From Escallonia rubra (lineage: Eukaryota > Streptophyta > Magnoliopsida > Escalloniales > Escalloniaceae), in NCBI GenBank assembly GCA_033065855.1, contig JAVXUO010001693.1, positions 62,001 through 126,000 of the forward strand: a DNA stretch of 64,000 nucleotides, in the 5' to 3' direction. The stretch's first letter is position 1. Every line of letters starts with the position of its first letter. Made by a program: the position numbers and the translations under genes. Below the pieces are notes generated by a model, which saw only the letters and a list, made by a program, of their open reading frames with translations, made no database searches and was not told the DNA's origin. Shown one piece after another: positions 33,439-56,390 of this stretch.

Positions 33439-36400
33439 TAGTCCGATTGGCAAACGGAATTGGAATTAGAATTTGGAATTGGAATTGATTTGGAATTGAA
33501 TGAAATTTGTAATTCCATTGATTGGTTAGCACAAAAAATTAGATCTAAGAATTGAAATTGCTAAAGTCAAAAAAAACAAAAGGTAAATATTCAAAACGAA
33601 AGTTTCAAGTTTTTTTTTTTTATCAAATTATACCCCACGCCACCCTACCCCACAAAAGAAAAAGAAAAGAAAAGAAAATAAACGTAAGATGACTAAGTAC
33701 AAAATAAATTAAAAAAATGAGCTCAGTAAAATACACATGATGACCAAGTATAAATAAATAAATGAGTAAATTTTTTTGTTCTTTAAAGATAACATCAGTC
33801 AACATTACCACAAACCCAACTCAAAAAGCATTCAACCAACAACCACCATAAATCCACTATAGTTCTTGAGAATGCACCACATATTACGTTGTTTCAACAA
33901 GAAAATAGCTCATAAAGAGAAACATAATTAGCTATTGTATCAAATTCCTCGTCCACGTCTCGCTTGATATTCGGCGAACATGTCCTTCGCTAAATTCTCC
34001 CTAAATGTTGTCCATTCAGGCGTGAGTCGGACATATCTTATAACTTCTTCATCGCTCGTGTCATTTCAAATTTGAGCAGCTGCTAATTTTGCATCAACCT
34101 CAGCTAATAATCTTACTTCTTGTCCAATTTGCTCCTCTCGTATGAAATTGTACAAAATACAATATGCATTAACTATTCGAACCTATAATACGAAATACAA
34201 ATGCTAAAAAGAATCAGATTGTCACATGTTATATACTATATATGTATGCACAAAATTATAAACCAACAAGCTACCACTCATAATATCACCTGTGTTTTTA
34301 CATCAAAGAAAGACGCGGTTCTAAGAATTGCCCACCGTTTCTTCAGCAACCCAAATGTTCTTTCAATCACATTCCTTGCGGTTGAGTGACAAAGATTAAA
34401 CAACTCTTTATAAGTACTTGGATTATTCCCACTAGCTGCCCGTTCATTAAGATGATAACGTGTTGAACGATAAGGAGCTAAAAAACCAGGTCCATTTGAA
34501 TATCCAGCATCAACCAAATAATATTTTCCTGCATTGTAGAATTTGCATTTCATAGACTTGAATTAATCCATTCAAATTCTCTCTAGTATTGAAAAAGACA
34601 AACAAGTGACATACCACATGGCACGATAAAGGGGCGCACTCGAGTTAGGGCATTCCTCAGTACCTTATAATCTAATGCAGATCCCTCCCATCCGGGTAAC
34701 ACATAAACAATTTTCATGTCTTTATCACAAACTCCGAGGACATTAGTTGCAATTTGTTGCTTCCGATTTCTGTATCTACCCTGATCTTGGCGAGGAACGG
34801 TAAGAGGAACATATGTTCAATCTAAGGCTCCAAGACAATTCTAAATAAAAGCACAAAAAATATCATATTAAATCGACTATACAAAGCAATACATAATCTA
34901 CATAATCATAAAGATCGTCTTTCTCACCTTAAACCATCTCCATTTTTCATCTTCCACAGTCTCTAAGTTTGCCTCTCGGACTTTGATATAATTGTCAGTC
35001 AACTTAAGAACCGCTTTTAACACTTTACCAAATTGCCTACTAATAGTTTCTCCAGAACGAATGTAAAATCCTTTTATTACACGAAATTTAGTATTGTGAG
35101 CAAGAACATGTAAAAAAGTGGCTACTGCTTCTTCAACATATACACGCCCGCAATCACGCAACCCTCATTTCGTACGTAAGATACGACAAAGTTTAGCAAA
35201 TGAATTTTTAGTTACACGTAACTGGTCATAGCAATTATCATCACTTTCATTGTATAAGCGCCTCAATATTTGATCCCTTAACATCTCCGAGTCATCAGTA
35301 TGTTGTTTCTTAACATATTTTTCATGATAATATATTGCTAAAGATGCCACGGATACTCCAATTCCTTGTAACATTAGCCTTCTCATTTTTGCTCGCATAA
35401 TCCCATCCTCGTCATTTTCGTTGGACGAAAAGGATCTTAACATAGTATTATCCATATGACAGATACAAAAGCACTCGTAGATACTATCAAATAGTTCTAC
35501 CAGTTCTGCACATAAGAGCAAGTATATATTAACCAATAGATAAAAATGAAAACTGAATTGGTTGTAACCAACGAAAGCAATAATTTTAAACACAAGCATT
35601 AGTTGCACCAACTTTATCAAATCAGCATTTTAAGATAGAAGATAAATAACACAACTAGAAGACAAATGTTTATATCGACATCACCAATAAGGTTGATCAG
35701 CACAATTATTACCTAGTCAAATCCTTATGTATTTACCATTGGAGTACCTAAGGCAATACAGAAGCTATGATAAAAAGATAAAGATGTCTGAATTACTATG
35801 GGTTGATGCCTACAAAAGTCTTAGCACCATGCACAAGCACAACAAAAGAAATACATTCCACTAAACTGAAGGCAAACAAAGACGAAAATAATATAGGTCA
35901 AAAAGCATATTGTTTCAACATCGATGGGATCCATCTTCTTAAGTTTTTGCAAGTGGCCAGTAGTGTTTGGGTCGAAAACACTACCAATGAAGCTATATAC
36001 TTCAGCAAAGTCAGGCAGAACAGCAAAAAAAGAAGGCAACAAAGCTAGTAATGTTATGACAAAAATAAGTGAGACAATTTTTTAGAAAACTAATATATAA
36101 CTCACAAAATCTATTTCCTTATGCAACCCGAAAAAAATCATAAATTTATATAAAGTAAGAAGCCCCACGTAGACTATTTTCTTATGCAACGGGCATATAG
36201 ACTACCTCAGCGCCATATTTGTACTTATCGTTAACAAAAGGTGTAAACCCTAGAATTCCACACACAGAAAGAAGGATGAATCTAAGCTAATCATAGAAGC
36301 AAAATAGAAGATTAATCAAGCAAAGAATAAATGATTATTAGAATGGCGACGAGCCGACAACAACGAGAGAAGAGCATCTTTTGAAGTACTTGAGTATCCA

Positions 36401-37780: not shown

Positions 37781-37824
37781 TTAGAGAAATTGGAGGTTAT
37801 CTGTAATATATAAATTAGACCCGG

Positions 37825-38587
37825 TGTTTGTGCTGCTGGGCAAACTCACTATCGATCGCGCGCTGACGACGCAATCGATGAACAGCGTGGGATCTTTTTT
37901 GCCTCTCGGGCCTGAGGACTTCACTAAAAAGGAAAACTCACTAATAATAGCAAACTAACTAGATCGATAATCGATCGCCCACTTGAATTACAAACAAAAC
38001 AGTGATCGTGATTCGAACACAATTCTTACAACGAACTATGCTTCCTATCGAAGCTACACAAATCATCTAAAAGTCTCCTTACAAGAGAAATATGCAAGCT
38101 ATCTATGTTATTTTCTTAGTCTAAATGTAGTTGGAAAGATTGACGACCTCTTTCTCTGTTACCTTTCATCTGTTTTATACTTGATTATTTCTGTAACTGC
38201 CCTTCCTTTGTAACTGTCATCTTTTATCTCAATCTCCATGATTTCTGAAAACTCCTTAATCGTGTCCATTGCGGTTTACTTTAAAATCCCGACTTCCATG
38301 GTGCGTTATCAATCGTGACATTGACTGGCGCTTTCCTCTTTCTTGTCACCACTAGCCGACTTTCATGGTGCGTTATCGACCGTGACATCGATTGGCAGTT
38401 TCTTCCTTCTTGTACGGCTTATTCAAATATTTGGTTCTCCCGCTTTCTTTGCTTATTCATCTACTCCTTATAATTCGGTAACACTGTAACCGTGTTCTTT
38501 TCCACTTCCTTTACTCATGCATTTCTTCTGTGGCTATCACTATGCCACATGTCTGCACACTACTGGTCAAAATATTTGGTGCCAATA
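37825..38587 (-). repeat. 3' LTR of the Tat element
   Basis: About 763 bp. On the plus strand it opens TGTTTGTGCTGCTGGGC and closes TTTGGTGCCAATA, against CCAACA in the 5' LTR. It aligns throughout with 49847-50677, except that it holds two rather than three units of a 68-bp internal repeat (CATGGTGCGTTATC.. type). It lies 41 bp to the right of the PIF/Harbinger target duplication. Confidence 0.9.
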
Positions 38588-38600
38588 TTGCCCCCCTTTT
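38588..38600 (-). promoter_or_regulatory. Polypurine tract of the Tat element
   Basis: The minus strand reads AAAAGGGGGGCAA directly before the 3' LTR, the expected plus-strand priming site. Confidence 0.8.
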
Positions 38601-38748
38601 AACTCGCGCGACGATACAGTCGGGTGAGTTAAATCTGTTGTCTCAACTTCTATCGCTTTTAAAACTCTTAACCGTTTTTATTCGAAGCTGCTTTAAGTTG
38701 ATCTTTAATCTTTATCAGGATTTTCTTCAATAAACCCTAAACCATCAA

Positions 38749-41700
38749 TTGCTTCTTTCAATGTTCCCTTCAGCGATTATGGTGAAGACAAGAACTTTTC
38801 TTCATGGTGATGATGGAGATGGAGTAGAGTGTCCTCCAAACCCTCGGTGGGGTGTTGGGGCTCTTATGAATCATATTGACCCTATTGATTCACGTATTTT
38901 GATTCCTTATAAGAAACGCTCAACATCTACTCCGCATATTTTAGGTTCCTCATTTAGGGTTCGTCCTCAAGCCCTAAAAGGATACCCAGTCGATGACTCA
39001 GAAAAGTTGCTGCTCAATTCGCCTTTTTTAAATTGGAAGGGTTGGGGTGAGACTGGTTTGCCGATTAGATCCTGGCCAACTCTGATTCATGCCGATTGGG
39101 GTTTATGGGTTGACCGTTTGTCTGCTACCTATGCCGATCAATGGAAACGGCAAGGTATTTTTGAACTCATTCATATGTCTAAAACCCCTCCCAAAGTAGA
39201 TCGATGGCTTTTATCTAGCTCTTTTTGTTTCTGGTCAACTACTACCAACGCTCTTATGTTAAAGACCAAGATGATGGCCCCTACCATACTCGATGTTTGG
39301 GCCTTAACAGGCCTTTTGTCGATTGGTGGTCACGCTAATGCTTTGACTTATCATAATCCTACCAATCTGTCTCTCGATGTTTCATCTTCAAAATATTCTG
39401 ATACCTTTGAAAGATATTTTCTTAAATCAAAGAATGTTAATTCTTCTCCTGATATAAAAGAGTTAGCCATTTTCCTTTGGATGTGGCTTTCTAGTCATGT
39501 TTTCTGTGTTTCTAGTCTTTCTTTGACCAAAGAATATCTGAACTTAGCTATCAGCTTAGCTCATGGTAGGGAATATGCTCTTGCACCCTTAGTATTGGGT
39601 AATTTGTATAGGTCGATGTTTACCATGGTGGAAAAGAAAATTCATTGGAGCACTGGTGGTCCTTTTTGGTTGATGCAACTGTGGTTGCATGCCTATTTTC
39701 TAGAATTTAGTCTCACAATTCCTGACCAACCTGATTCTTTCTTCTTGACTTATGGTCATCGCTTGTCTTTGGGTGATATCAGGCTACATTCTTTTATATC
39801 CTGTTTTCGTTTCTTTTTTTACTTCAATTTCTACAAGCGTGGACACCCTTTTCTTGCCCGATCAATCGGTCCTCACTGGTTTAGAAACCTCCCTACTTAC
39901 ATCAATGATACTATGTCCATCGAATTCCAAGATATGGTTCGAAGGATATGGGCTAGTTTTCTTTGTGGGCGATTTCTTCATTCAGGTGGTCAAATTATTA
40001 CCACTCCTTCAGGATCTTGTGGATATGAGCGGTATACTCCTTCTTAATTTGGCCAGCAATTTGGTTTGGCGCAAGGGATTCCAGCCCCTTTTTTCATAGA
40101 TAACGGCTTTTTGGAATCTAAAGAAAAAATTAAACGGATCACAGTGAATCATATCAAAAGAATCGACAGAGCCGTTGATGAATCAATGGACAATTTCGTC
40201 ATGTCCAATTTCAAGATTCGTACTGCTAGGGCAGTCACTCCTTTTGACTCCTGGTATCAAGAGAATGTCTCACGATTCTATGGTGATAACACTTATGCTT
40301 CTTGTATGGTTCGTTTAGCTGTGGACAACCCACATCGACCAGGTATTCTCTTTTCTCTTGATGTTATTTATGGTTGATTTTATATTCTTTTCCACTAAAT
40401 CTTAATTTATCAATGTAAGAAATATCAATCAACCTACTGCTTTTAGGAAAAGGGATCGATCTCCTTCTGCAGGATCTTCTCAAACAATATCGAGTAGAAA
40501 AGGGAAAGAGCCTGTTACTGAGGTTTTTTCAGAAAAACATGAAGTTGATGATGGCTCGGATGACTCTTCTGAGGGTTTATTATCCGAAAAAGAAAAAGAG
40601 TTTGAAGACATGGAAGAAGAAGATGATGAAGAAGATAATGTTCCTCTTATCTATCATAGAAAAACAATTAGAGAAAAGAAGAGGCAATTTGAGCATGTAC
40701 CTGCTGATATTCCTTCTAACCATCCATCAGACGAACCAATATCGGCTGTTCCTTTAAGTGTTGGTCTCCCTTCTCAGACTGTTTCAACTTTTGTCTCTTT
40801 TCAGCCAGGTTTGAATCTCTTTGTTATTGTATCATTTTCTGATATACACTAAGAGCTTATTTCAACCTTTATTTCATCTTCACGCAGCCGATCAAGATGC
40901 TAGATCGTTTGAAAAACCTTCTGCTGAAATGGGAACTTCTGTTGATGTTGTTCTTAAACAAGCACAAGAGTCTTCTCCTGCCCCGATCGATCGATCAGGA
41001 GTTCCTTCAAGAAAATCAAAATCCACCAGGAAGAAAAGCATTGCTCGCAAAACTCGTTTTAGCGCAAGAACCACGTCTTTGAAGGTAAAAAATCCTTTTG
41101 TTGGCTCTTGTATTTACTTGCTAAATTCATTGTTTTACCCCCTTATTTAGGATTTAGGTAGTATTACCATTGATTTGACTCAGGGGAGTGCCAGCAAGGA
41201 TGACAACTCTGATGATACTTCTTCCAATGCTTCTGCTAGCGTGGAGATTAATAAATAGATCACTAGTAATAGGGCATCTCCAGCTCTTACTCCTCCTCGA
41301 TCAGCATCTTCTCCTCATTTGTAAATTTTTTATCATCGTAACCTGTTATTTTATTAGTGACTCATACTTTATTATTGTCTATTTTGCAGATCGATAAACC
41401 TTGCGATATTCCAGATAAAGAAGATCATGATGATCTTTCTATCGATCACCATTCTAAACAACTAGATGATGCTGCTTTGCCTAATCTTCCACCTGTTGAA
41501 ACTCACCTTCCAACTGAAGGTTGTTCCTCTGCTGATGCAGATCTGGCTCAAGGTCCTAAACTCACACCTGCAACATCTAGTCATTCTGCGGCTGTCCCTT
41601 CAATGTCTGAGTCATCAGCCCCTCCAGTTGTTTCTAGTTCTCCTTCAATCGTCCAGATGATAACAGAAGCTACAGGTATCTTGGCTACTCAACAAACTTC

Positions 41701-42335
41701 TGCTCCTATTCCAGCTGTTGATGACATCAACCGTAAGTTCTTGCAACTTCAGTCAGTCATTAGTGCATTTTCATGTCCTTCGAGCAGTACATCGGCTTCG
41801 CCTTCCAGTGTTGATACGGTTGCTATTCTTAACGTTTTTAAAAGTTTGCTTAGCGACCGTCTTCCTGATATTTTGGCTAATGAGGAGGCCATACTGAAGA
41901 TGAATGACTTGATCGATACCCTCGCTGATAATACATCAGTTTTGAACGTTGCTCAGTCGGCTCTAATATCTACTTTAAAATTCCAAATCTCTCTGATATC
42001 AGCTTCTTGGAAACAAGGTATGAACATTAGATCTAATGTTCAGATAGTAGATCGAGATATTGATGCCTTAAATGTTCAAGTCCAAGAGAAGCATCAGATT
42101 AGTTTGCAGATTTCTAATCCATGAGATTAAGGCTGAGAAGAAAGAGTTGGAAATAAAGATGAACGCACTGAATCAGAAAGATCAAAGTCTGATGGAACAG
42201 CAAAATAGTGCTTATCAAGAGGCTGTTGATTTAACCGCAGCTATGGAGGAGCCTTTAAAGAAACAAGCTAGAACACAATCTCAGCACGCTTTTGCTGACC
42301 AAATCATGACTAGGGCAGAAAGTCAGTGGGCATAA
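38749..42335 (+). CDS. Antisense plant-mobile-domain (PMD) gene carried by the retrotransposon (fossil)
   Basis: It runs opposite to gag-pol, between integrase and the 3' LTR. The first large block (38749-40047, 432 residues) has the PMD family (aminotransferase-like, plant mobile domain) layout. It contains LLNSPFLNWKGWGE, HADWGLWVDRL, a FELIHMS segment and W..TTNAL, then TILDVWALTGL and a GGPFWLMQLWLHAYF block like the GG.LW.LQLW motif of host PMD proteins. Later blocks encode a Ser/Lys-rich and acidic linker (EDMEEEDDEEDN) and, towards 42335, a charged coiled-coil-like tail. GT and AG signals at block edges suggest a spliced gene. Host PMD proteins (MAIN, MAIL1) act in transposon silencing and meristem maintenance; what retroelement copies do is unknown. 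Whether this copy can be expressed is unclear. Confidence 0.8.
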
Positions 42336-42520
42336 ATTCAATCTGCTTTTGATATTTGATGTAAACAATTACTCTTGTTGCTGAACTTTGTTTTAGGACT
42401 ATTATCAATTTTTCAGTAATCAAACTGCTTTCCTTACATTTTACTTGCTTTTTTTTTTTTTTTTTTGCTTTCTTAACCTTTATCAGGTTAGTGCAAACTA
42501 TCTCTGTCGATTGATTCTAT

Positions 42521-43861
42521 TCATTCCCACATGGAAGGGATATACCTTTTTAAATATCGACCATTTATCGGCTTAGCATGCAATTGTCCTTCCATTGATT
42601 TCAACCAATATGCTCCACCTCTCAAAACTTTATGGACTACAAAAGGTCCTTCCCAATTTGGTGACCACTTACCAAATTTTGATTCTTTTGAACCTATGGG
42701 TAGTATGGTTTTCCACACTAAATTTTCTTCCTGAAATGTTTTGGGTAAGACCCTCCGATTATAAGATCTACTTACCCTTAGTTTTTGTGCATGTAATCTA
42801 TCCAATGCATCCAATCGATGGTCGTCCAATTCTTCCAATTCGATTGCCATGGCCTCGTTATATTCTGTCACTGGTAAACTGTTTTGCATGGCTACACGGA
42901 AAGATTTTACAGTTATTTCCATAGGTAATACAGGATCATATCCATATGTTAAAGCATATGGAGTTATCCCAGTACTGGACCTAGGGGAAGTTCGAAATGC
43001 CCAAAGAACCTCTGATAACAGGCGGTGCCAGTCATTTGGGGAATCTTCAATGGCTCTCTCCATGATGTGCTTAATCGATTTATTTGTTACTTCGGCTTGG
43101 CCATTTGCCTGTGCATAATAGGGAGTAGAATTTATTAGCTCAAACCTGTATTCTTTGGCGAACTCCCATATTTGCCCCCCCCCAGTAAAAACGGTACCTC
43201 TATCGGCCGTGATTGTTTGAAGTAATCCAAATCGATGGATTATGTTCTCTTTGATAAAAGTGATTACACTCTCTTGTGTAACCGTTTTCATAGGCTTAGC
43301 TTCTGTCCACTTCGTAAAATAATCAGTCGCTACAATTATAAATCCATGTCTTTTGGATGAAGAAGGATGTATTTGACCTATTAAATCCATGGCCCATCCC
43401 CTAAATGGCCATGGCTTTACTATCGATTGTAATTCAATACACGGCACACGATGGATGGCTCCATGCTTTTGGCAAGCCTGACATCCTTTTGCATATCGAA
43501 TGCAATCTTCCATTATGGAAGGCCAGTAGTGGCCATGTCGTCTAATTAACCACCTCATTTTGATTCCTGCTTCGTGGGCGCCGCATATACCTTCGTGTAC
43601 TTCAGCCATCACCTGTATTGCCTCTTGTTGTCCTAAACATCTAAGTGTCAATCCTTCTGGCGTTCGTTTAAATAAATTATTATCTAACAAGAAATATTTG
43701 GTTGCCTGTAATTTTACTTTTGTATCTACTCTTGATTCTGGATTTTGTAGATACTGAATGATTGGCATTCTCCAATCGTTTTGAACTGCATCGATTGGGT
43801 TAACCATTTCTAAATCTTTATACCTGTCATTGATCATTGGCAGACACTTTGACACCTTCAC
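42521..43861 (-). CDS. Integrase part of the Tat element (fossil)
   Basis: It opens with the His/Cys zinc-binding region (RRHGHYWPSIMEDC, CQACQKHG). The catalytic core has its three acidic residues in DLIGQIHPSS, ITADRGTVFTGG and NGQAEVTNKSIKHIMERA. Then come the W.AFRTSPRSSTG and PYALTYG blocks and a C-terminal GPFVVHKVLRGGAYWL module. It is a well-kept part of a broken polyprotein and is the last pol domain before the antisense cargo gene. Confidence 0.9.
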   Translation of the reverse strand: MKVSKCLPMINDRYKDLEMVNPIDAVQNDWRMPIIQYLQNPESRVDTKVKLQATKYFLLDNNLFKRTPEGLTLRCLGQQEAIQVMAEVHEGICGAHEAGIKMRWLIRRHGHYWPSIMEDCIRYAKGCQACQKHGAIHRVPCIELQSIVKPWPFRGWAMDLIGQIHPSSSKRHGFIIVATDYFTKWTEAKPMKTVTQESVITFIKENIIHRFGLLQTITADRGTVFTGGGQIWEFAKEYRFELINSTPYYAQANGQAEVTNKSIKHIMERAIEDSPNDWHRLLSEVLWAFRTSPRSSTGITPYALTYGYDPVLPMEITVKSFRVAMQNSLPVTEYNEAMAIELEELDDHRLDALDRLHAQKLRVSRSYNRRVLPKTFQEENLVWKTILPIGSKESKFGKWSPNWEGPFVVHKVLRGGAYWLKSMEGQLHAKPINGRYLKRYIPSMWE

Positions 43862-44557
43862 TCATTGTCCATCGACTTCTTCAGGGACTTTTAAACCTGA
43901 AGATAACTGAGCCATTACGTTGGCACTGCTATTATTTATCCGGGGAATATGAGTTATAGTTACATCATCAAATTTTGCCAATAAATATGTTGCAATGCTG
44001 AAGTACATCTCTAAACCAGGGGCATTGCATTTGAATTCTCTGTTTAATTGCTTTATCACCAGTTGAGAATCTCCAGATATTTGCACCGTAGTGATGTGCA
44101 TGTCCAATAGTATTTCTAAACCGATGATTAAGGCTTCATATTCTGCCTGATTGTTAGAGCAATCTTTCTCAATCTGGAAAGCAAACTGATGTATGTTACC
44201 ATCAAGAGATATTAGTACTATACCAGCACTAGTTCCCTGACTAGTTTTTGACCCATCAAACGTCATTCTCCAAGGAGCAATACCCACATATATTACCCCA
44301 TCTTCTGGGTTATTACATGGATGACTTGCTAAGAAATCAGCCAATGCCTGTTCTTTCACAGCTTTTTGAGGAACATATGTTAAGCTGTATTTTATCAATG
44401 CTAGAACCCATTTGCCCATTTTTCCTCTCAACACTGGTCTAGATAACATATATTTTATTAAATCGGTTTGTGCTATAACTAGCACATCAAACGGCAACAT
44501 ATAATGTCGAAGTTTAACTGCAGTAGAATATAGAGTCAAACATAGTTTTTCAATCAC
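43862..44557 (-). CDS. RNase H region with second, plant/archaeal-type RNase H (fossil)
   Basis: The first part (LRHYMLPFDVLVIAQTDLIK, KWVLALIKYSLTYVPQKAVK) is the end of the usual Ty3 RNase H and its tether. After ALADFLASHPC a second RNase H starts: WRMTFDGSKTSQGTSAGIVL, NNQAEYEALIIGLE, ISGDSQLVIKQLN and THIPRINNSSANVMAQLS. Its FDGS, NQAEYEAL and GDSQLV motifs are those of the additional RNase H acquired by the Tat lineage. Confidence 0.85.
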   Translation of the reverse strand: MIEKLCLTLYSTAVKLRHYMLPFDVLVIAQTDLIKYMLSRPVLRGKMGKWVLALIKYSLTYVPQKAVKEQALADFLASHPCNNPEDGVIYVGIAPWRMTFDGSKTSQGTSAGIVLISLDGNIHQFAFQIEKDCSNNQAEYEALIIGLEILLDMHITTVQISGDSQLVIKQLNREFKCNAPGLEMYFSIATYLLAKFDDVTITHIPRINNSSANVMAQLSSGLKVPEEVDGQ

Positions 44558-44587
44558 CGTATATTTTTGTTCAGTTACATTTAAACC

Positions 44588-45544
44588 TCAACTGAAATAA
44601 TAAATAGCATGTTCAAATCCTTGGTCGTTTTCTTGGGCTAAAAGACTTCCAAGAGATGACTCCGCTGCCGACACATATAACTTCAAAGGCCTCCTGATCT
44701 TCGGTGGCATCAGTATGGAGGGTTTGGTTAGATACTCTTTTATCGATTGAAAAGTCGATTGTTGTTCTGCTTCCCATCGATATTCTGTATCTCCTTTCAT
44801 CCCTAATAATGTTGAAAATACTTTTGTCTTTCCTGCTAGATTAGCAATGAATCGACATAAGAAATTGACTTGCCTCAAAAAACGCTGAAGCTCTTTCTTA
44901 TTTGAAGGAGGTTTAGCATTTATAATGGCCTTCGCTTTGTTCTTATCGATTTCGATCCCTTTTTGATGTACCAAAAATCCTAAAAAGTTTCCTGCAGAAA
45001 CTCCAAATGCGCATTTTAATGGGTTCATTTTTAGGCCATGTTTTCTCATCCGTATAAAAGCATTTTCCAAGTCTTTAACATGCTTTTGATAATCTTCTGA
45101 TTTTACAACCACATCATCAATGTATACCTCTAAAAACTTGTCAATCATATCATGGAAAATTAAATTCATTGCTCTTTGGTATGTTGCTCCAGCATTTTTT
45201 AGACCAAAAGGCATAACTACACATTCAAATGTGCCTATCGCACAAGGACATCTAAATGTTGTTTTATGAATATCTTCATCTTTAAGGAAAATCTGATTAT
45301 AACTCGCATTTCCATCCATAAATGACATAATAGCATGCTTAGACGCATAATCAACTAACATATCTACAATAGGCATGGCATATTGATCTTTAGGAGTAGC
45401 AGAATTTAAATTTCTAAAATCGATACATACTCTTAATTTACCATTTTTCTTTAAAACAGGAACTATATTTGACATCCATTCAACATACCTGGCTGGTCTG
45501 ATGAACTTGGCCTTGAGAAGCCGCTCGATTTCTTCCTTCACCAA
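44588..45544 (-). CDS. Reverse transcriptase part of the Tat element (fossil)
   Basis: Motifs appear in order: WMSNIVPVLKKNGKLRVCID, DFRNLNSATPKDQYAMP, SFMDGNASYNQI, FECVVMPFGLKNAGATYQR and the catalytic FLEVYIDDVVVKS. They are followed by FLGFLVHQKGIEID, the KAKAII..PP..KKELQ thumb and the start of RNase H (RRPLKLYVSAAESSLGSLL). This is a Ty3/Gypsy-type enzyme, part of the broken pol region. Confidence 0.92.
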   Translation of the reverse strand: MVKEEIERLLKAKFIRPARYVEWMSNIVPVLKKNGKLRVCIDFRNLNSATPKDQYAMPIVDMLVDYASKHAIMSFMDGNASYNQIFLKDEDIHKTTFRCPCAIGTFECVVMPFGLKNAGATYQRAMNLIFHDMIDKFLEVYIDDVVVKSEDYQKHVKDLENAFIRMRKHGLKMNPLKCAFGVSAGNFLGFLVHQKGIEIDKNKAKAIINAKPPSNKKELQRFLRQVNFLCRFIANLAGKTKVFSTLLGMKGDTEYRWEAEQQSTFQSIKEYLTKPSILMPPKIRRPLKLYVSAAESSLGSLLAQENDQGFEHAIYYFS

Positions 45545-46267
45545 TAACGTTACTTAATTCGACATTTTTCTGGGGGCTTGCATAAACGGCTTGAATCATT
45601 GTTTGATAGGTAGTCTGTGTTCCACCAGCTTCCTTTCTAAACCTGGCATTTCTTCATAACTCCATGCAAAACAGTCTTTGTATTCTTTAACTAAGTCAAT
45701 GATTTTTCTCCTGCTTTCAAACGGTAACTGAGTGCTGATGTAAATTGGCCATGGATCAACTTATGTCCCCAAATTTACCTCGATCAATGGATCATGTGTT
45801 TCTATTCTCAGATCATCTAACTTGGCTGGTGCCAATCTAAGATCTTGTAACCGAATTCCGTCTAATCGGTCTTTCTCGTCATCTTCAACGCATTCTGCCC
45901 AATCGATAGGTGATAATCTTGCCAATCTTTTCTCCATGGCATAGACCATCAACTTTCTTAAGGTTTGCATGATTTCTTCCTGTCCTATTCTAAACTCGCT
46001 CATTTCTTCAACCGCTATCGGCTAATCTTCAAAATGTTTATCGTCTCTTTCTATTTCAAAATTTTGGGCAATGGGAGCACGTTCTGATTCCTATTGCATT
46101 ATGTTCTCTCTCGATGATCGTCTATTCATTAAAAACCTTCTTCTTGCATGTTTGGTAAGGACCTTCTGTTTCCAGGTCCAACCATCGAATTGATTCCTCG
46201 ATATTCCACTAAAATCCCATCTTCATCTAAAACTAGTGGTTCTATTTTCTGCTGATAAAATTTTGCT

Positions 46268-47065
46268 TCAAGACAATTTGACTCTGCCAGAAAATGGCTT
46301 GTCATCAGCCCAAACTAATTCAGCCACCTTCTTGCCATTTTTTTCTTCCCTCCAGAATATTAAAACCTGGTGAAGTGATGATGATATACAGCCATTTACA
46401 TGTATCCAATCTCTTCCAAGCAAAGTGTTGAAACTCGAAGAAGAATCGATAACAAAGAATTGTGACATCTTTGTTTTCTTTCCAACAGTCAATTCTATTG
46501 GGACCACACCTTTTGGTTTGGAAATTCCTCCTGCAAAGCTGCACACCATGATCTCAAAGGGAATCAGATCTTTTTCGTCTTTACATAGTTTCCTCAGCAT
46601 TCTGGTGGGCAAAATGTTTACCGCTGCTCCATTATCAACCAATACTCTGGCCACTGGTTGACCATCCATCAGTGTGGAGATAAATAAAGGCTTCAAATGC
46701 CTTGTCTTTTGAGGATCTGGTTTGGTTAATATGACTCTGTTTCCATGATCGATCATTATTCCTTTGTCTGAATGATTTTGGCTCATCTCACTTGCTATTA
46801 CATCCCCTTCTTTAACTGCAAAGCTGTTTGGTACCGGTGCCTTTTCGTCCTCCACATCTTCTTCGTCTTGAACCATTTGCTCTTCTTTTGCTCCAAATGT
46901 GAGAGGAAGAACAAACACCATATTGCAGTCGATACTTGTTTCGTGTTCTCCAAAGAATAACCTTCTTTTGGTTTCTACCTTTTTATCTCTGACGGTTGCT
47001 TTGTTTTCTTTCTTCACTTCTTTTCCTTCGTGAGTATCCATATTTTCTTCTTTATCAATCGACAT
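46268..47065 (-). CDS. Protease part of the Tat element (fossil)
   Basis: The retropepsin core is MDGQPVARVLVDNGAAVNIL, with the catalytic Asp in the D-N-G-A form, followed by CSFAGGISKPKGVVPIELTV and FFVIDSSSSFNTLLGRDWIH (the LLGRDW flap end typical of plant Ty3 proteases). An acidic, Lys-rich linker precedes it. The stretch 45545-46267 between this and reverse transcriptase is a linker without a clear domain. Confidence 0.85.
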   Translation of the reverse strand: MSIDKEENMDTHEGKEVKKENKATVRDKKVETKRRLFFGEHETSIDCNMVFVLPLTFGAKEEQMVQDEEDVEDEKAPVPNSFAVKEGDVIASEMSQNHSDKGIMIDHGNRVILTKPDPQKTRHLKPLFISTLMDGQPVARVLVDNGAAVNILPTRMLRKLCKDEKDLIPFEIMVCSFAGGISKPKGVVPIELTVGKKTKMSQFFVIDSSSSFNTLLGRDWIHVNGCISSSLHQVLIFWREEKNGKKVAELVWADDKPFSGRVKLS

Positions 47066-49804
47066 CTACTCAAGTGGTTGAAATTTTCCTTTTGCAATCA
47101 TTGCCTGAAGAAACTCTTCTTCTGTTTGTTTCTTATGTTGAACTTCAGCTAAGTTCACACCCTCTTCTTCTTTTGTCCAAGTCCACTTCCTCCTTTCGAG
47201 TTGGGCTTGTTTGATCTCTAATTCTCTCTGCATTATGGCTGCGAACTTCCTTTGAACCCGACGCTTCTGTGTTCGACTTAAACCTTGATACGTCTCTGGG
47301 AAAGGAACTTTCTCTTGTCCAACTGTATGCCAATCTTCATCAGAAGGGATTTTTGGTTTCAACATCCTAGATTCTCCTCGGTATCTTCGCATCACCCGAT
47401 ATTCATTTCTTTATCCGGCTGGTATAGAATTTTTTCCTTTGTAATTTTTGGACACATATGTTGGATCAAATGGTCCAGATCTTGGTTTCACCATATTTGA
47501 TCCAAAATGTCCGGCTCCTATGTTGTTTTGATAGATAACTTGATTAGCCATATTTGGCTGTCTAAAACTCATGTCTGGCCTGAACAACTCCGATTTTCTT
47601 GGTCTGTCTTCTGGTGCTGTTTCTCGACGTATTTTATCTTTTGCCAAGTGGTCTTTTCGCCGTATTTTTTCTGACAATTCTCTAGAGGAACCACAACTCT
47701 GACATATTGGCTCTCCTATCGGTCTGATTTCTGACATAGAAGTGCCCATCTCTGGAAAAGGGTCACTGTCTACTTCCATCACCTCTTTGTCTTTGTCCAT
47801 AAATTTGAGAAGTCCGGCTTCGATTTGATCCTGCACCGCATTTCAAAAAATAACACAATTATTAGTATTATGACTAATAGTATTGTGCCACTTACAGAAT
47901 TTTGACTTCTTATCCTTTGTTATTCAAAGAGGTCCTTGCAACTGAATGAATTTAATCTGCAAAAGATGATCAAAAATCTGATCCGCTTGATTTATATCGA
48001 ACGAGTATTTCCTCAGTGGAGGCGATGGATTTAACTTGTTTGGTTGTCTCGAAGACAAGCTGATGGGATTTTTTACTTTAACCAAAGTATCATAGATGAC
48101 TGGCTTCTTCCCAACCATTTCTGCAGCGTCTACCTCTAGATCGATGGGATCCTGGTAATAAGTTCCCATAGAATAATTTTTCTTAATCTGTTCTTCTCTC
48201 AACAAGGTTTCATATCGAGTCACTCTGGATGATAATTCAAAAACATTTCTAAACTCCATTCCTTCGAATTTTTTCCTAATTTCGAGATCTAGACCATTGA
48301 GAGCTAAATTTGCCAATTCTGATTCTGGCATTTGAAAATGGCATTTATTTTTTGAAGCTTTGAACCTTTCCAAAAACTGTTCAGCATTTTCTCCTGAATG
48401 TTGTTTCAACCTAGCCAAATCAGCCAACGAAATTTCAGGTTCCATTTTAAAAATTTGAGTATGGAATAAAACTTCCATGTCTCTAAAAAAGAACACTGAA
48501 TTAGGTGGCAAATTTGCAAACCATGAGAATGCTACGCCAGTTAATGAATATTGAAACCATTTCAACTTGACCCAATCAACTTGGCTCAAATCCCCACATT
48601 GAAAGGTAAACCTAGCAATGTGTTCGATGGTCGACTGGTTTCCTTCACCATGGAAAAGACTAAATTCTGGGATCTTTGCCCCCCTAGGCATTTCCCACTG
48701 ATCGATATCATCAGGGTATGGTTTTCGATATAAAGGCCTATCAATAGGCATGTATCCCTGACCCATTCCAACTCGTGGAAATTCATGAGGGAATTGTGGC
48801 ATCTGATTCATTTCAACTCGATGAAATTCATGTGGGAGATGAGGCACTTGGCCCATTCCAACTCGATGGAATTCGTGTGGTAGGTGTGGTATAGGTTTGT
48901 AACCTACCCTCTCTTTATTGTTTATTTGACCGTTATCGGTCGTCTATTCAAACATTGGGTTTTCAAACCTATTCACCTTTTCTAGGTTCCTCTTATGAGG
49001 AGGAGCGTAGGGACCCTCTACTCCCTGATTAGCATAATGCTGGTTGTTCCCATTTCTAGGGATGTTGATACTATTGGGCCATATAGCATGATTATTTGTT
49101 CCACTTCCTCCTACTTCTTTCCTATTTAGCCCGTTTTCCCCTCCGTCGATAGGTGCGGGAATGTACTAACCAGAATCATGCGGTTGGTTTGAGCTTAGAC
49201 AATTTGCTTGCTTTACAGCATTTTCGATCCTTATAGGAGACCCGTCGATCTCCAAAGAATCAACATGATCGATAATAGGGGCTTTCCCCTTTTGCAATTT
49301 CGAATTTACTACTTTAGCGATAGAAGCAGTCTGTTTTTGGATTTCTCCTGACAAACCTTTTACCATTTCTTTTTCAGAGGTATTTCTTTCCTCTGAAGCT
49401 CGCTTCACTTCTTCTACTATTTTAGAACCAAACTGACTCTGCTCAGTAACCAATTTATTCAAAGACATAGTTTGATTTTCCATAACAATCATAAACCTAG
49501 ATACCATATCTTTAACTTCTTGGTTTGATGAACTAACCTGGTCCATTATCTGTGCCAAAGTTTGGATACTGTGACTGATATTCGGCATCCCCAGGTTAAG
49601 ACTTCCACTGTCACTGGAGCTTCCTTCGTTGAAAATTCCTGAATCTTGAATGTAAGCGTTCATATTTTCAGTTCCATTCATGCCGTTAACGGCTTGATTA
49701 TTTCTTGTTTCTTCTGAGCCATTACCATTGTTGTTGGTGTTTGAATTCTCGATACCATTAGTGGTACAATTTCGCCTCACAACATTGCTCCGTGTGTTGG
49801 GCAT
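47066..49804 (-). CDS. Gag part of the Tat element (fossil)
   Basis: It starts near the primer site with MPNTRSNVVRRN and an Asn/Gly/Ser-rich N-terminus. A coiled-coil-like stretch follows (IMDQVSSSNQEVKDMVSRFM). The conserved capsid core is at about 48.2-48.7 kb: AKIPEFSLFHGEGNQSTIEH, KWFQYSLTGVAFSWFANLPP, LADLARLKQHSGENAEQFLE and FKASKNKC. The C-terminal part has a QPNMANQVIYQNN segment and basic repeats. No CCHC zinc knuckle was recognised. The region is broken in a few places. Confidence 0.8.
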
Positions 49805-49825
49805 AGTTTTCTTTTTTAGCTACCT

Positions 49826-49845
49826 GGGTCCCACTGGGCGTGCCA
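49826..49845 (-). promoter_or_regulatory. Primer-binding site of the Tat element
   Basis: One base after the 5' LTR, the minus strand reads TGGCACGCCCAGTGGGACC. It begins with the TGG that pairs with a tRNA CCA end and resembles the TGGCGCCCACCGTGGGGC type seen in other Tat elements, as I recall. The tRNA is not assigned. Confidence 0.7.
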
Positions 49846-49846
49846 A

Positions 49847-50677
49847 TGTTTGCGCTGCTGGGCAAACTCACTATCGATCGCGCGCTGACGACGCAATCGA
49901 TGAACAACATGGGATCTTTTTTGCCTCTCGGGCCTGAGGACTTCACTAAAAAGGAAAACTCACTAATAATAGCAAACTAACTAGATCGATAATCGATGCG
50001 CCCACTTGAATTACAAACACAACAGTGATCGTGATTCGAACACAATTCTTACAACGAACTATGCTTCCTATCGGAGTTACACAAATCATCTAAAAGTCTC
50101 CTTACAAGAGAAATATGCAAGCTATCTATGTTATTTTCTTAGTCTAAATGTAGTTGGAAAGATTGACGACCTCTTTCTCTGTTACCTTTCATCTGTTTTA
50201 TACTTGATAATGTATGTAACTGCTCTTCCTTGGTAACTGTCATCTTTTATCTCAATCTCCATGATTTCTGAAAACTCCTTAATCATGTCCATTGCGGTTT
50301 ACTTTAAAATCCCGACTTCCATGGTGCGTTATCAATCGTGACATTGACGAGCGGTTTCCTCTTTCTTGTCCCCACTAGCCGACTTCCATGGTGCATTATC
50401 GATCGTGGCATTGACTGGCGGTTTCCTCTTTCTTGTCTCCACTACCCAACTTTCATGGTGCGTTATCGACCGTGACATCGATTGGCGGTTTCTTCCTTCT
50501 TGTATGGCTTATTCAAATATTTGGTTCTCCCGCTTTCTTTACTTATTCATCTACTCCTTATAATTCGGGAACACTGTAACCGTGTTCTTTTCCACTTCCT
50601 TTATTCATGCATTTCTTCTGTGGCTATCACTATGTCACATGTCTGCACACTACTGGTCAAAATATTTGGTGCCAACA
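49847..50677 (-). repeat. 5' LTR of the Tat element
   Basis: 831 bp, opening TGTTTGCGCTGC and closing GGTGCCAACA on the plus strand, so it has the canonical TG..CA ends. It contains three units of a 68-bp internal repeat (GACTTCCATGGTGCGTTATC style) at about 50315-50515. It is nearly identical to 61729-62559 and about 3% different from 37825-38587. Confidence 0.92.
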
Positions 50678-50840
50678 CCTGACAATTGGATCCCTGCGGG
50701 TAACTCATCGTAGGTAAAGGTCTTGTGGTTACAGGTAGAATTTTTTGGTGCCAACACCCGGCAATTGGATCCCTGCGGGTAACTCATCGTAGGTAAAGGT
50801 CTTGTGGTTACAAGTAGAATTTACTTGGAATTTTATGGGT
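50669..50840. repeat. 78-bp tandem repeat covering the LTR end and flank
   Basis: GGTGCCAACACC.G.CAATTGG, then ATCCCTGCGGGTAACTCATC and so on, starts at 50669 and again at 50747. The unit contains the last bases of the LTR, the target duplication and host flank, so the local duplication happened after the retrotransposon landed. Both duplicated segments have it (second copy at about 62551), so it predates the larger duplication. Confidence 0.85.
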
Positions 50841-51863
50841 AACGTTTTCTTAGATCCATGCCCAACCCACCTTAGAACGGGTATATCAACGGATAATCTA
50901 ATGTTTTCATCGCCTTTTTTTCTCTTCCCATTTTTCCACACACACACACTCTCTTTCTCTCTTAAAGACAAAACAAACAGCACACAAACGATAGACGTAC
51001 ACACACGTGCACGCTCATAGAATAGACAACGTACACTAATTCATAGCTGATGCGCACGCGCAAGGACCACACACGCATGGAGACCCACGCTTCATACGCA
51101 AAATAAGTAGTACACACGCACATACAGAGGCGCAAAGTGCTGGAGTGTTAGAGTTGCTATGTAACCGAGGGAAAAAATAAAATGACAGAGATAAAAAATT
51201 AAAACCCTAAGTATTATTTATTCACAAGTATATCCATGTCCAACCCAATCTTACCTTACTTGTGCGGACACTTACACGGGCATGGATAAAAATTATCCAC
51301 AAGTTTACCAATAGATAATATCCTCATTTAATTATTTAACATTGGACTGGATCTGTCAGGTAATGAGTAGACTTCGCCGCGACTAATACAAATGAATTGT
51401 ACATAACAAACTTACTTTAATTTGTCCGATGAATCACGAGGAGTGAACCACGACAAAAATGTGGCATATATTATATTTGCACTGAGTGGATGCTTCGCCT
51501 AGACTTTCCGCTTATCAAAAAGGAGAATCTAAAAAGCCACCTTCTTTTCTTTCACACAAGTGAGGGCTAGGACCGAATGATTAGTGCTTTATGCTTAGTG
51601 CCCTACATTTACCAATGATATGAAGGCTTTTGTTCATCTTCAATAGTTATGGAACTGAATCGGAGTGCTGGATTGATTGTTAATTTTTTTTTCTAATCTG
51701 GATTGATTGTTAATTGATCATTGTACTGATTTGATGTCTTGAATAGAGTAAAATGTATCTGATTGCGAATGAATTGGTCAAAGTGAGTTTGAATCGGGCC
51801 AGAATAGGATGGTTCAATCCATTATTAGAATTGCAATCAGCTTATTTTACAAATTAAATAACA

Positions 51864-51932
51864 AGACACCCACCCAGATTTGATCCTGGGCGTAAGCGCT
51901 GAACCTCTAAGCCATATGCCTGCTTGTCTTAA
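51864..51932 (-). repeat. tRNA-like sequence, possibly a SINE head
   Basis: The minus strand has a box-A-like TGGCTTAGAGGTTCAGCGC, a T-arm-like CCCAG/GATCAAAT/CTGGG and flanking AAGACA/TGTCTT arms. The anticodon arm seems to be missing (spacing between boxes too short), so this is not a working tRNA gene. The same sequence is in the second duplicate at about 63709-63777. Confidence 0.3.
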
Positions 51933-52155
51933 ATTTTATCATGTGTATATTTATGGTATATCTAAGTTAGATTTACGAAAATAATGATATAATCTGAATT
52001 CCAAACCAAATCAATAGTAGAACAGGTTAAAATCATGAGTGGCACCAATAATCTCTGAACCATTGCCTGGACTAGTTCGAAGTCTGATTCAATTCTACCA
52101 TCATGCTCATAGTAGTATTGGACTCAAGTGTCATTTTGGGAACTCGAATATCACC

Positions 52156-52823
52156 AATGACTAGCTCAAAACCACCAAGGTTTCATTACTAACTTTAAGA
52201 TGCTCAAGCGAAACTCACGTACAAGATGCTCCCCGTGCGAGTCATAGTTAACCCCATGATTCCACTTCAGCATTTTTTAGTTGGACTATTCTTTGCCTGC
52301 TTGATTACGAAGTTGTCACATGCACGAGCCATAAACGTTGAATTGACAGAATTGAATGCCTATCGCATATCTGGTGCACTTGGTGCGTTATAGTCTTGCG
52401 AATGACTATCTTCAACTCCAGGATAAAAAAAATTGAAACATTTTTGTTACGTAGTATTTGAGCAATTTCTTCTTCATTTTTTTTTCGTTGATACTTGATA
52501 TTATATACATATATGAAATGGAGACCTGAGAAGACAACATGCTGTCTTTCAAGCTTAATCTTTTGATTTCATTTCATAGATGGACTCTTGTAGTATAATG
52601 TTAAGTCGGAACCCAACAAGCGAAACATAAGAGTCCATAACGCTAAATTTGGTAGAAAAGTAAAAACTATCGTAAAAAAAAAAAAATGCAATAAAGAAAA
52701 GAATAAATGTATATACAGACAACAACATTGTCCTACACCTTTCCTATAAATTACATGGACTTATTTATGGACAATTTTGCCCTTTCGAGAACAGATAAGA
52801 CCTCCGCGTGAATCTCAACAAAC
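52156..52823. other. Intergenic, 3' of the membrane-protein gene
   Basis: AT-rich and unique within the window. It contains an A run at about 52674-52687. It probably includes the 3' UTR and terminator region of the minus-strand gene that ends at 52824. Confidence 0.45.
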
Positions 52824-53774
52824 TCACTCACCGAACTCGTCAATAACGGCGTGAGCGTCCCACCATGTCTCGCCGTCAGCCCCCGCGGAATTCTCCAGCG
52901 GAATATTCGCGTTCCTCAAGTCCCCCACCGTCAAAGCGCCGGTGACGCCATCCCTGACATACACTTTCTCATTCCCGCCGGAATTTATTCCCACCGCCTT
53001 CCCCAGCCGCGGCCGCCACTCCGCACGTATCGCCGGGTTATGACGTCCCATCCTGACGTCATGCGCCGCCAACAGGAAACCGCCGTTACTACTCAGTTCC
53101 CCGGATAAAAGCACCGCCGGTGAAACCATCGCCACCGCCGGAATCTGACCCCTCCCGCCTAAAATGGAGCTTATTTTAACGTCCTTGTTTAAATCCCACA
53201 TAGATATCTCAGTTTCAGATGAGTCATCAAAATCTAAACCTAGCCCTAAGCTGTCCCATAGCTTGACGACACTTTTGCCGGCGGAAAATTCCGGCCAGGA
53301 GAACAGGTCGCCGACGCTGCACCGCCGCCGGAGCTTGAAGTCGCCGTTTTGCCATTGCCGCCCCCAACAAGAGCTCGAACCCGCCACCCGGAAATCTTCA
53401 TCGACTTGTCTCCGATCCTCGAACGGCGAAGTTTGGTCGGTATCGTCATCGTAATCTGATGCCGCCGCGGATGACGACGTCTCGTCGTCAGTCAAGTCCA
53501 AATCGTCGTCCGATTCTTGCAAAAGTGGCTGGGAAACGGAAGGCAGGCAATTGACTGTACGGACCCGGATGATGAGGAGCTTGATTCTGTTGATTACGCC
53601 GGTGAAAGCAACAAAGATTACAAGAACGATGGCACCCCATTTCCAGAAGCTGTACACCTGAGGCACCTTTTCGATACCCGAGAGGGACAGGAATCTGGAG
53701 ATGAGGGACGGGTTTTGCAGGCATTTCATTCCCGCTCCAAAATCAGTAATAATGTTAATATCCGTAATCTCCAT
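52824..53774 (-). CDS. Uncharacterised plant single-pass membrane protein (316 aa)
   Basis: I do not recognise a named family. One hydrophobic segment lies at residues 46-61 (WGAIVLVIFVAFTGVI) and continues as a basic-aliphatic NRIKLLIIRVR. There is no clear signal peptide before it. Residues 88-125 are acidic and Ser-rich (SDDDLDLTDDE, SDYDDDTDQTS), as in cytosolic linkers. The C-terminal half contains WD-repeat-like phrases: SETEISMWDLNKDVKISSIL, AVLLSGELSSNGGFLLAAHD and EKVYVRDGVTGALTVGDLRN. The count is too low for a full propeller. The gene is intronless and GC-rich relative to its flanks and has a TATA box about 135 bp upstream, so I take it to be a real gene. A second copy is predicted beyond the right window edge. 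Confidence 0.8.
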   Translation of the reverse strand: MEITDINIITDFGAGMKCLQNPSLISRFLSLSGIEKVPQVYSFWKWGAIVLVIFVAFTGVINRIKLLIIRVRTVNCLPSVSQPLLQESDDDLDLTDDETSSSAAASDYDDDTDQTSPFEDRRQVDEDFRVAGSSSCWGRQWQNGDFKLRRRCSVGDLFSWPEFSAGKSVVKLWDSLGLGLDFDDSSETEISMWDLNKDVKISSILGGRGQIPAVAMVSPAVLLSGELSSNGGFLLAAHDVRMGRHNPAIRAEWRPRLGKAVGINSGGNEKVYVRDGVTGALTVGDLRNANIPLENSAGADGETWWDAHAVIDEFGE

Positions 53775-53907
53775 TTCTTCTCAACACTTCCCAAGAATAA
53801 AAATATTCCAAAAAATTTTAATCTAAGTTCTTAGCACTTTTTTCAGAGAGAAAAGAAAAGGAGTGAAAATGGGGAGGAGAGGCTTGAGGGAAGGAGGAGT
53901 TCGGAAC

Positions 53908-53915
53908 CTTTTATA
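53908..53915 (-). promoter_or_regulatory. Candidate TATA box of the membrane-protein gene
   Basis: The minus strand reads CCTTTATAAAAGGTTCC here, 134-141 bp before the ATG at 53774, leaving a purine/pyrimidine-rich leader of about 100 bases. Confidence 0.6.
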
Positions 53916-54540
53916 AAGGTGAGAATGGGGAAGAAGCCGAAATGATAAAATAGTGCTTCTTGTTAAAGGGGGCGACGTGGCGGATGTTGATTGGGGGAAA
54001 GGTAGAGTTTTCCGGGCCACGCAAGCAAAAGGGGAGGAACTTTTGGGGGCCAACCCAAGAGATTGAGATGGGTGAGTCAGGAGATGCCGAGTTGTACTGA
54101 GCTAGGCCACGAATGACTCAGCAAATACGTTTCTTTTTTGGGACGAGGTCAAAATTTGTGGTTGTTAGGGTTGCAATTGACGGGTGTGGTGTAGCCACCA
54201 TTAGAATGGAGCCTTGAAGAGTTGATTGCTTGTGGGGCAAAAACATTGGTTTGGAGTATATGTCTGTCTAAAGGGTTAAAGGTTTCTCCCCTCTTCAATC
54301 AATGACTTGGTGTTTGCTGCGTTGTTTCCTCTCTTTTAGGGTAAAAGGTTTGGTTTGGGCGGCTTCAGTTTTACCACGTTTTGTGTTAACACGTTGTCTA
54401 CTCATTTGGGGTACGACTGACTGACTAGTCCCATGCGTGGAGGTGATATCCTTAGATCCTACAACAACCCTGTGTATTTCCATGGGAACCCTCTGCACAT
54501 TTCATTCACGTCTAAAATTTTATTTTGGACTGTGTGATCA
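53916..54540. other. Upstream region of the membrane-protein gene
   Basis: Presumed promoter DNA, with no second gene read from it. The short frames here show no family resemblance. Confidence 0.4.
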
Positions 54541-54751
54541 CTAAGCTCGTATGTTAGTTAGCAGGGGATAGTTCTAACTTTATCGGAAGTCTCGAGTTCG
54601 AGTCCTGAGAATGCAGCTGCGTTAAAACTTGATAGGGAGAATTTTGCCGCTCATGTAGTCATGTCCAGCTCGAATCCCGAATTAGTCGGCTAGCTCCCAA
54701 TGTGTTGTCCGGATACCAGATGGTCTAACCAAATTTTTTTTTTTTTTTTGG
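54541..54751 (+). mobile_element. tRNA-derived SINE
   Basis: An internal promoter B box, GAGTTCGAGTCCTG, lies near 54595, with an A-box-like TTAGTTAGCAGGGG some 40 bp earlier. The body (GAGAATTTTGCCGCTCATGT, AGCTCGAATCCCGAATTAGT, CGGCTAGCTC, TGTTGTCCGGATACCAGATG, GTCTAACCAAA) ends in a T-rich tail of 15-16 bases. GTGTGA occurs just before (54532-54537) and just after (54765-54770), a possible short target duplication. The body matches a widespread plant repeat pattern I have met before but cannot name. Confidence 0.6.
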
Positions 54752-55129
54752 GTCGTGTGACATGTTAAAGTATTTTCACAAAACATAATCATAAAGGACA
54801 GTTTTGATAAATCATTAGAGTTTTTGAAAGTGTTTACATTGTGTGTGTCATGAGTGAGGAAACGTGTTTTTCTTACATAAACAGTTGAAGACATTTGTTT
54901 CAAATTGATTGACTCCTCTTGGTAATATGTGTTTGAGTCTTATACTCGTACGCACAATGGAGAAGAACAAGTGGCGGAGATGCCATAAAAGGAACCTTTC
55001 TCGCACTTTTTTCGCCCTCCAATTAAGTTCTCTCTCTAACTTTTTGACTTTTTTATACATTTAGGTTTCTGGGTTAAGATATTGGGTGTAGTTATCTCTG
55101 TATTTCGCAATACTTTGATACCCGTCCCT
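54752..55129. other. Intergenic stretch
   Basis: No gene or repeat recognised apart from the SINE tail flank at its left edge. Confidence 0.4.
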
Positions 55130-55430
55130 GAAAATTTGATCAGTTTGACTTTGCACGCATATTAATGATTTAAGTTATCTATCGTGTGTTTTTTTTTTAT
55201 TTTACCCTTCAGAGAGGGGGGGAAGAGAGTGAGTTAAGAGAGAGAAAATTGATTGGTATAGTATTAAATGTGGACAGAGAAATAAAATAAAATAAAAGGT
55301 ATAAGAAAGTAAACATGTAAAAATACCTACATAATCTTTTTTAATTTGAAAGTGATCAATTTTGTGTGACGACCCAAAATAAAAAATATGATCAATTTAT
55401 TCATTTTGATATAAATATAACGGAACAAAT
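55130..55430. mobile_element. Stowaway-like MITE, copy 3
   Basis: It shares body landmarks with 8464-9060: GATCAGTTTGACTTTGCACG, a TGTGTTTT..TTTTACCCT block, GAGAGAGAAAATTGATTGG, TTAAATGTGGA, AAAGTAAACATGTAAAAA and TTTTTAATTTGAAAGTGATC. It ends with AATATGATCAATTTATTCA. The terminal repeats are degraded. Confidence 0.45.

Positions 55431-56359: not shown

Positions 56360-56390
<31 letters not shown>

Follow-up and report, generated by a model that had tools for sequence, protein, structure and literature searches.

Proteins with a Plant Mobile Domain (PMD) are encoded both by plant genes and by transposable elements (TEs). MAIN and MAIL1, two host proteins with the domain, silence TEs, and the PMD-A clades consist of gypsy sequences only (Ikeda et al., 2017, PMC5418596). 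In one survey of long terminal repeat (LTR) elements, the PMD headed the non-canonical domains by frequency (PMC9289625), and 57% of Ogre elements are reported to carry the domain (pfam10536; Neumann et al., 2019, PMC6317226). Counter-silencing by TE-carried PMD proteins has been suggested (PMC8616336; for MULEs, PMC5418596), and decoy, own-regulator and double-stranded RNA (dsRNA) ideas have been proposed earlier (PMC7264820; PMC8616336). The present analysis concerns a 64,000-nucleotide stretch of Escallonia rubra DNA, called the window (assembly GCA_033065855.1, contig JAVXUO010001693.1, positions 62,001 to 126,000), in which a plus-strand PMD gene at 38779-42335 lies antisense between the integrase (INT) and the 3' LTR of a minus-strand Ty3 element. 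It is tentatively regarded, with a probability of about 0.42, as a spliced antisense accessory gene of an Ogre-type family, whose nuclear protein would engage host PMD silencing on behalf of the element.

The element resembles described Ogre elements in its PMD open reading frame (ORF) and in having a second RNase H before the integrase (PMC6317226), and it shares their tRNA-Arg priming (PMC9289625). The accessible text of PMC6317226 does not state the orientation, introns or selection of the Ogre PMD ORF, which are described here. As in the PMD-A1 and PMD-A2 clades, the PMD resides in a gypsy element (PMC5418596), and in this genome two Tat PMD families stand apart from host PMDs. The TRP28 ORFs of Retand and gene23 of maize Grande are likewise antisense genes of Tat elements located between pol and the 3' LTR, and a nuclear or regulatory role is suspected for them, as it is proposed for the window gene (Vicient, 2025, PMC11963269; PMC7264820); Retand, however, carries Transposase_28, whereas the window element carries a PMD instead. 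Host MAIN and MAIL1 (PMD-C) have the PMD in common with the gene but are far off in sequence, and the accessible accounts show a silencing role for the host proteins only (PMC5418596; PMC8616336). MULE DNA transposons also carry PMDs (PMC5418596; locus L050 in this study), but they belong to another element class and their PMDs to a distant group. No report of introns, selection or a dyad for an element PMD ORF was found in the literature searched, most subscription papers lying outside that search. As far as searched, PMD cargo in Ogre and gypsy elements was already known, and the additions are the intron structure, the integrase-level constraint and a dyad beside the polypurine tract (PPT).

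A PMD coding block had been proposed in a sequence-only reading of the window, and profile searching confirmed it: the ORF at 38734-40047 on the plus strand, which encloses the ATG start codon at 38779, matches PF10536 over profile positions 1-191 of 347 with E=6e-24 and 85.3 bits, where the curated cut-off is 34.9 bits. Exon 1 of L012, a relative lacking the stop, covers profile positions 1-346 (E=1.2e-30, 107.3 bits). The antisense placement between integrase and 3' LTR, also part of that reading, is borne out by the Pfam domains and the LTR pair. The AlphaFold model of exon 1 from an 18-row alignment had a mean predicted local distance difference test (pLDDT) score of 38; solved structures gave no sequence match at E up to 1, and among viral contigs one stretch fits a pattern and no encoded relative was found. 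Reading frames in relatives, splice columns and frame-wise stop counts yielded a model of five exons and four introns, with splice dinucleotides counted over 30 sequences (the window and 29 loci):

38779..40342, plus strand: exon 1, with the complete PMD module (Pfam, dN/dS); in-frame TAA at 40045-40047 in the window copy
40343..40472, plus strand: intron 1 (GT in 27 of 30, AG in 24 of 30)
40473..40808, plus strand: exon 2, acidic/basic linker (open frame, phase, stop counts)
40809..40887, plus strand: intron 2 (GT 28/30, AG 28/30)
40888..41084, plus strand: exon 3, ending in a basic patch at 41010-41084 (frame and conservation)
41085..41150, plus strand: intron 3 (GT 27/30, AG 27/30)
41151..41317, plus strand: exon 4; TAG at 41256-41258 and damaged 3' donor in the window copy
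about 41318..41389, plus strand: intron 4, its donor reduced by a 5-nt loss in the window copy
41390..42335, plus strand: exon 5, a fast-evolving body and a constrained, helical-looking tail, with stop codon TAA at 42333-42335

The phases of all four introns join open frames, in agreement with the GT/AG signals noted earlier between the coding blocks. The predicted full protein of about 1,070 residues would comprise the PMD, a fast-evolving linker with the basic patch, and the helical-looking tail; most of the 17 rows compared extend a few codons beyond 42335. Splice dinucleotides are kept above the intron interior, clearly so for introns 2 and 3. As a control, inner dinucleotides of introns 1, 2 and 3 were conserved at means of 0.61, 0.55 and 0.67, and those as well kept as the splice sites amounted to 0% and 6% in introns 2 and 3. 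In intron 1 they equaled the donor in 9% and the acceptor in 28%, this acceptor being the weakest splice site. For intron 1, an alternative acceptor at 40446 was discarded, as its use would disrupt the frame, which 40472 preserves. Because it contains two in-frame stops (TAA 40045-40047 and TAG 41256-41258) and two 5-nt losses, one at the intron-4 donor and one after 42116 that shifts the frame of exon 5, the window copy is, as read from its sequence, a dead member of the family from which the whole protein can no longer be made.

Selection was assessed as the ratio of nonsynonymous to synonymous change (dN/dS) from pairwise Nei-Gojobori counts, using pairs at most 93% identical for the exon-1 blocks. 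Three blocks of exon 1 gave 0.147, 0.142 and 0.189, against 0.98-1.26 in the two other plus registers and 0.98-1.62 in two of the minus registers; the third minus register, the mirror, which shares the wobble position, gave 0.225-0.287. Coding on the minus strand over exon 1 was rejected on stop counts, the mirror register holding 246, 428 and 93 stops and the coding frame 38, 24 and 13. Among 24 closer rows (pairs at most 95% identical), exon 1 had a dN/dS of 0.187 with 54 stops in 12,205 codons, compared with 1.125 and 981 stops in 12,184 codons for the control register. Difference rates in exon 1 were 0.114 at codon positions 1 and 2 and 0.279 at position 3, and those of introns were 0.237-0.281. 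Because dN/dS values of 0.14-0.19, as against about 1-1.6 out of register, are near that of the integrase (0.141, 17 sequences), the alignments indicate that the PMD is kept as a protein by selection, about as strictly as the integrase, during the spread of the family. Codon-level selection of this kind means that a role of the RNA alone cannot explain everything. It bears on the alternative that the antisense RNA is the functional product, pairing with genomic RNA as dsRNA and feeding small RNAs, while the protein is incidental. Antisense transcription over pol and the 3' end would indeed yield dsRNA, and tea PMD genes give rise to 21-nt phased small interfering RNAs (PMC10673657); as the sole role, such RNA is nevertheless very unlikely in view of the purifying selection on PMD codons.

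The gene is widespread: matches in the 566-Mb host genome number at least 112 for the PMD ORF, at least 150 for the tail block and at least 107 for the integrase. Linkage between them was scored with 75 of the 150 tail rows and 84 of the 107 integrase rows, to which misses are partly due. Among the matches listed, the integrase lies on the opposite strand, at most 8 kb downstream, at 44 of 88 merged PMD loci, and the tail block lies on the PMD strand, at most 4 kb downstream, at 48. Among the same matches, a same-strand integrase occurs within 12 kb at none of the 88 loci, and four have an opposite-strand integrase that is not downstream (one of these also has a downstream one). The antisense PMD gene is a fixed part of the element family and no lone insertion, and a second Tat family has the same arrangement. 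Neither of the outcomes that, according to the sequence-only reading, would refute it has occurred: a PMD match exists, and the gene is not confined to this locus. Four integrase matches, 40% identical to that of the window, represent this other family, and at both of the two loci examined among them (L072 and L073) a PMD gene lies downstream of the integrase in antisense orientation. At L072 (1128-4406) the gene is a single uninterrupted frame of 1,092 codons (PMD E=2.5e-26), and at L073 (1601-5001) it is in pieces (PMD E=2.7e-9 and 1.9e-14). In a single BLASTP comparison, the second-family PMD was 26% identical to the window PMD over 97 residues (E=0.007). That the layout is shared although the proteins are so dissimilar speaks either for an association of long standing or for acquisition more than once. 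A phylogeny with host and other retroelement PMDs, as called for in the sequence-only reading, came out in part: the window PMD clusters only with copies of its own family, while its join to the second Tat family and the host cluster is weak, the two Tat families being united with support of 46/0 and a long-branch warning. At least 150 scored matches in the genome are to Transposase_28, which Retand elements encode antisense, so TRP28-bearing and PMD-bearing families coexist there.

The possibility that the element recently captured a host PMD gene, in line with the uptake of a host domain suggested earlier, was weighed against the PMD genes of the same genome. Four tandem PMD frames of 643-689 codons occur at 1276-1298 kb of contig C922 (genome G000; L001-L004); these, and L008, are taken here to be host genes, and the labels PMD-B-like and MAIN-like are likewise our own assumption wherever applied to sequences of this study. 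Another candidate host PMD gene is C306. While such genes could have served as donors, the window-type PMD is only 22-26% identical to the C922 cluster, tblastn found no match between it and L008 at E up to 1, long branches separate the PMD groups, and many element copies have an identical layout. The claim of recent uptake therefore fails: as judged from these sequences, recent capture from the host PMD genes compared is excluded, its chance being negligible; an ancient capture is conceivable, and PMC5418596 leaves the ancestry of the PMDs open. L008 and the transposon-borne PMDs L047-L050 form one well-supported group in the tree (100/100). L047 (C84:14600-22500) and L050 (C815:33800-41500) combine the PMD with a C48 (Ulp1-like) peptidase, and L050 lies opposite a FAR1/MULE transposase. 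PMD frames of the C84 type, 468 codons long and with identical scores, occur in dozens of places, which suggests a recent burst.

In the mechanism proposed for the accessory gene, transcription of the antisense strand would start in or near the 3' LTR, and the host would splice the transcript. Since the RNA that is packaged comes from the opposite strand, retrotransposition would leave the introns in place. The protein would then act in the nucleus for the benefit of the element, the least certain step, to which the basic patch and the host homologues point; its most likely action would be to engage the host PMD (MAIN/MAIL1-PP7L) silencing machinery and to weaken or redirect it at element copies. 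Several observations weigh against this picture. Among the matches listed, 32 of 88 PMD loci have neither tail nor integrase nearby. The linker exons 2-4 diverge like introns (0.249-0.274); their coding-frame dN/dS values of 0.501, 0.419 and 0.600 compare with 0.46-0.82 in other frames, and the lowest value in exon 4 is not in the coding frame. In the body of exon 5, dN/dS is 0.436, equal to that of its mirror register. Values in a 180-bp non-coding control block ranged from 0.27 to 1.46, so that the 0.217 of the tail is weak when taken alone. Finally, the Tat PMDs lie far from MAIN-like PMDs in the tree, and because of this distance a function common to the Tat PMD and MAIN/MAIL1 is an analogy only.

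The linker frames are nonetheless marked by stops, with 20, 16 and 15 in exons 2, 3 and 4 against at least 64, 51 and 49 elsewhere (for exon 2, within a larger block, 64-384 in the other frames), and the frame of the exon-5 body is marked by stops alone, with 14 against 210 or more, or 196 in one frame. The tail at 42125-42335 (70 codons) has a dN/dS of 0.217, compared with 0.351 in the mirror register, and 6 stops in 1,164 codons; its earlier description as coiled-coil-like stands as far as a constrained block is concerned, while the coiled coil is read by eye only, and no Pfam domain above cut-off was found there. Beyond the PMD, constraint thus appears less certain, and the linker seems barely constrained.

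Where the protein would act is suggested by the basic, R/K-rich patch at 41010-41084, possibly a nuclear localization or nucleic-acid-binding stretch. It is legible in L028, L029, L032 and L038 and kept in most copies, and it is broken in L013, L030, L034, L035 and L037. The conserved patch would also suit a replication accessory that assists nuclear import, chromatin docking or the choice of integration site of the pre-integration complex, roles of a kind that a review suggests for antisense ORFs (PMC7264820). Integrase-like constraint and fixed linkage to the element agree with such a function as well; the sequences revealed no tie to integrase or capsid partners, however, and the same domain works in silencing in host genes, which leaves the replication role possible but rather unlikely. 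Between anti-silencing, a replication accessory and a brake on the element, the sequence evidence, which favors a protein over an RNA-only role, picks none.

A further feature lies in the interval between the PPT and the gene start:

38598..38633, no strand assigned: inverted repeat with 15-nt arms (38598-38612 and 38619-38633) 6 nt apart, about 145 bp before the antisense ATG (repeat finding, aligned copies)

The dyad is conserved across diverged copies of the element. In 22 aligned copies, 90.6% of dyad cells pair, versus 19-35% when the arms are slid, and repeat finding recovered the dyad in four of five regions tried, L028 being the exception. In the same 22 copies no pair changed on both sides and column shuffles paired just as well, which does not speak for RNA pairing, and a DNA-binding site or a PPT-linked signal appears as likely as RNA pairing. 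No promoter-like stretch stands out in the conservation profile of the LTR and spacer. Lying near the gene start, the conserved dyad might serve as the operator of a self-limiting regulator, a protein that lowers the element's own expression or copy number, and host PMD proteins are themselves silencers (PMC5418596). Such a brake is improbable: selection for it is harder to maintain in an element, and the operator is only putative. Equally doubtful is the most elaborate form of the accessory-gene proposal, a self-contained, intron-bearing antisense unit in which the dyad would control a spliced gene for a PMD-coiled-coil protein that binds MAIN/MAIL1/PP7L and relieves silencing of the element.

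The host element, 12.9 kb long, is laid out as follows:

37825..50756, minus strand: Ogre-type (Tat) Ty3 LTR retrotransposon, LTR to LTR, with CCCGG on both sides
37825..38587, minus strand: 3' LTR (LTR pair comparison)
38591..38600, minus strand: PPT, AAAAGGGGGG on the element strand (read from sequence)
42521..43861, minus strand: integrase (PF00665, PF17921)
43862..44587, minus strand: RNase H end and second RNase H (RVT_3; Pfam)
44588..45553, minus strand: reverse transcriptase (PF00078)
46268..47065, minus strand: protease-like (PF13650, E=2.8e-4, under the Pfam cut-off)
47924..48943, minus strand: gag (PF03732)
49828..49845, minus strand: primer binding site (PBS), complementary to the 3' end of tRNA-Arg(TCT) (matches to tRNA genes of the same genome)
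49847..50756, minus strand: 5' LTR (49847-50677 plus a 79-bp tandem duplication at its outer edge)

Because a second RNase H precedes the integrase, the PBS is of the tRNA-Arg type and a PMD ORF is present, the element's sequence points to the Ogre branch of Tat, by features taken from PMC6317226 and PMC9289625; the Tat assignment made earlier is upheld by the second RNase H and the PBS. The former has RVT_3 at E=7.2e-20 within 43862-44587, with reverse transcriptase and integrase on either side. The tRNA-side pattern of the PBS has three exact matches in the genome; ARAGORN called tRNA-Arg(tct) genes at two of them and none at L068, and a fourth match with one mismatch is likewise tRNA-Arg(tct). 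Scanning 10 window ORFs at E up to 0.01 revealed no Transposase_28 (PF04195), the Retand marker. An intron-like stretch separates the gag-protease and RT-RH-INT ORFs of Tat/Ogre elements; here the 714 bp from 45553 to the ORF starting at 46268 contain nothing but broken frames in the window copy.

The two LTRs differ by a Kimura two-parameter distance of 0.033 (766 sites). Rates of 0.65-1.3e-8 substitutions per site and year are often assumed for plants, and at these rates the divergence corresponds very roughly to 1.3-2.6 million years. The left copy of the target site duplication CCCGG is at 37820-37824, and the right copy follows the second copy of the 79-bp duplication; after the first copy the flank is CCTGA, not CCCGG, and CCCGG is present once in the duplicated flank further right. 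The 79-bp tandem duplication spans the outer edge of the 5' LTR (50651-50808); the tandem copy, at 62.6 kb, lacks it. The gag part of the element, its 5' LTR and the flank lie in a segment of some 11.9 kb that is present in tandem (46620-58501 and 58502 to about 70328, the second end lying beyond the window) at 98-99% identity, and because of this repeat the second gag (58.4-61.7 kb) does not represent a separate insertion. The repeat is either a true duplication or an assembly artefact.

Elsewhere in the window, 35165-35629 (minus strand) looks by eye like the N-terminal part of a PIF/Harbinger-type protein, for which Pfam gave no match, and two segments are likely host genes (12406-13596 and 23205-23834, both plus strand), by eye resembling an isopentenyltransferase in one case and a VQ-motif protein in the other.

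PMDs connect a plant silencing pathway of unknown mechanism with retrotransposons. Constraint at the level of the integrase turns a catalogued extra ORF into a gene that must serve the element, and whether the element PMD blocks, copies or redirects the host MAIN/MAIL1 pathway is now a testable question. The introns of the antisense gene illustrate how a gene with introns can pass through the RNA stage of a retroelement. Were the self-contained unit described above real, antisense placement would let a retrotransposon keep spliceosomal introns, and the PMD silencing genes of the host would face the element PMDs in an arms race as old as the angiosperms.

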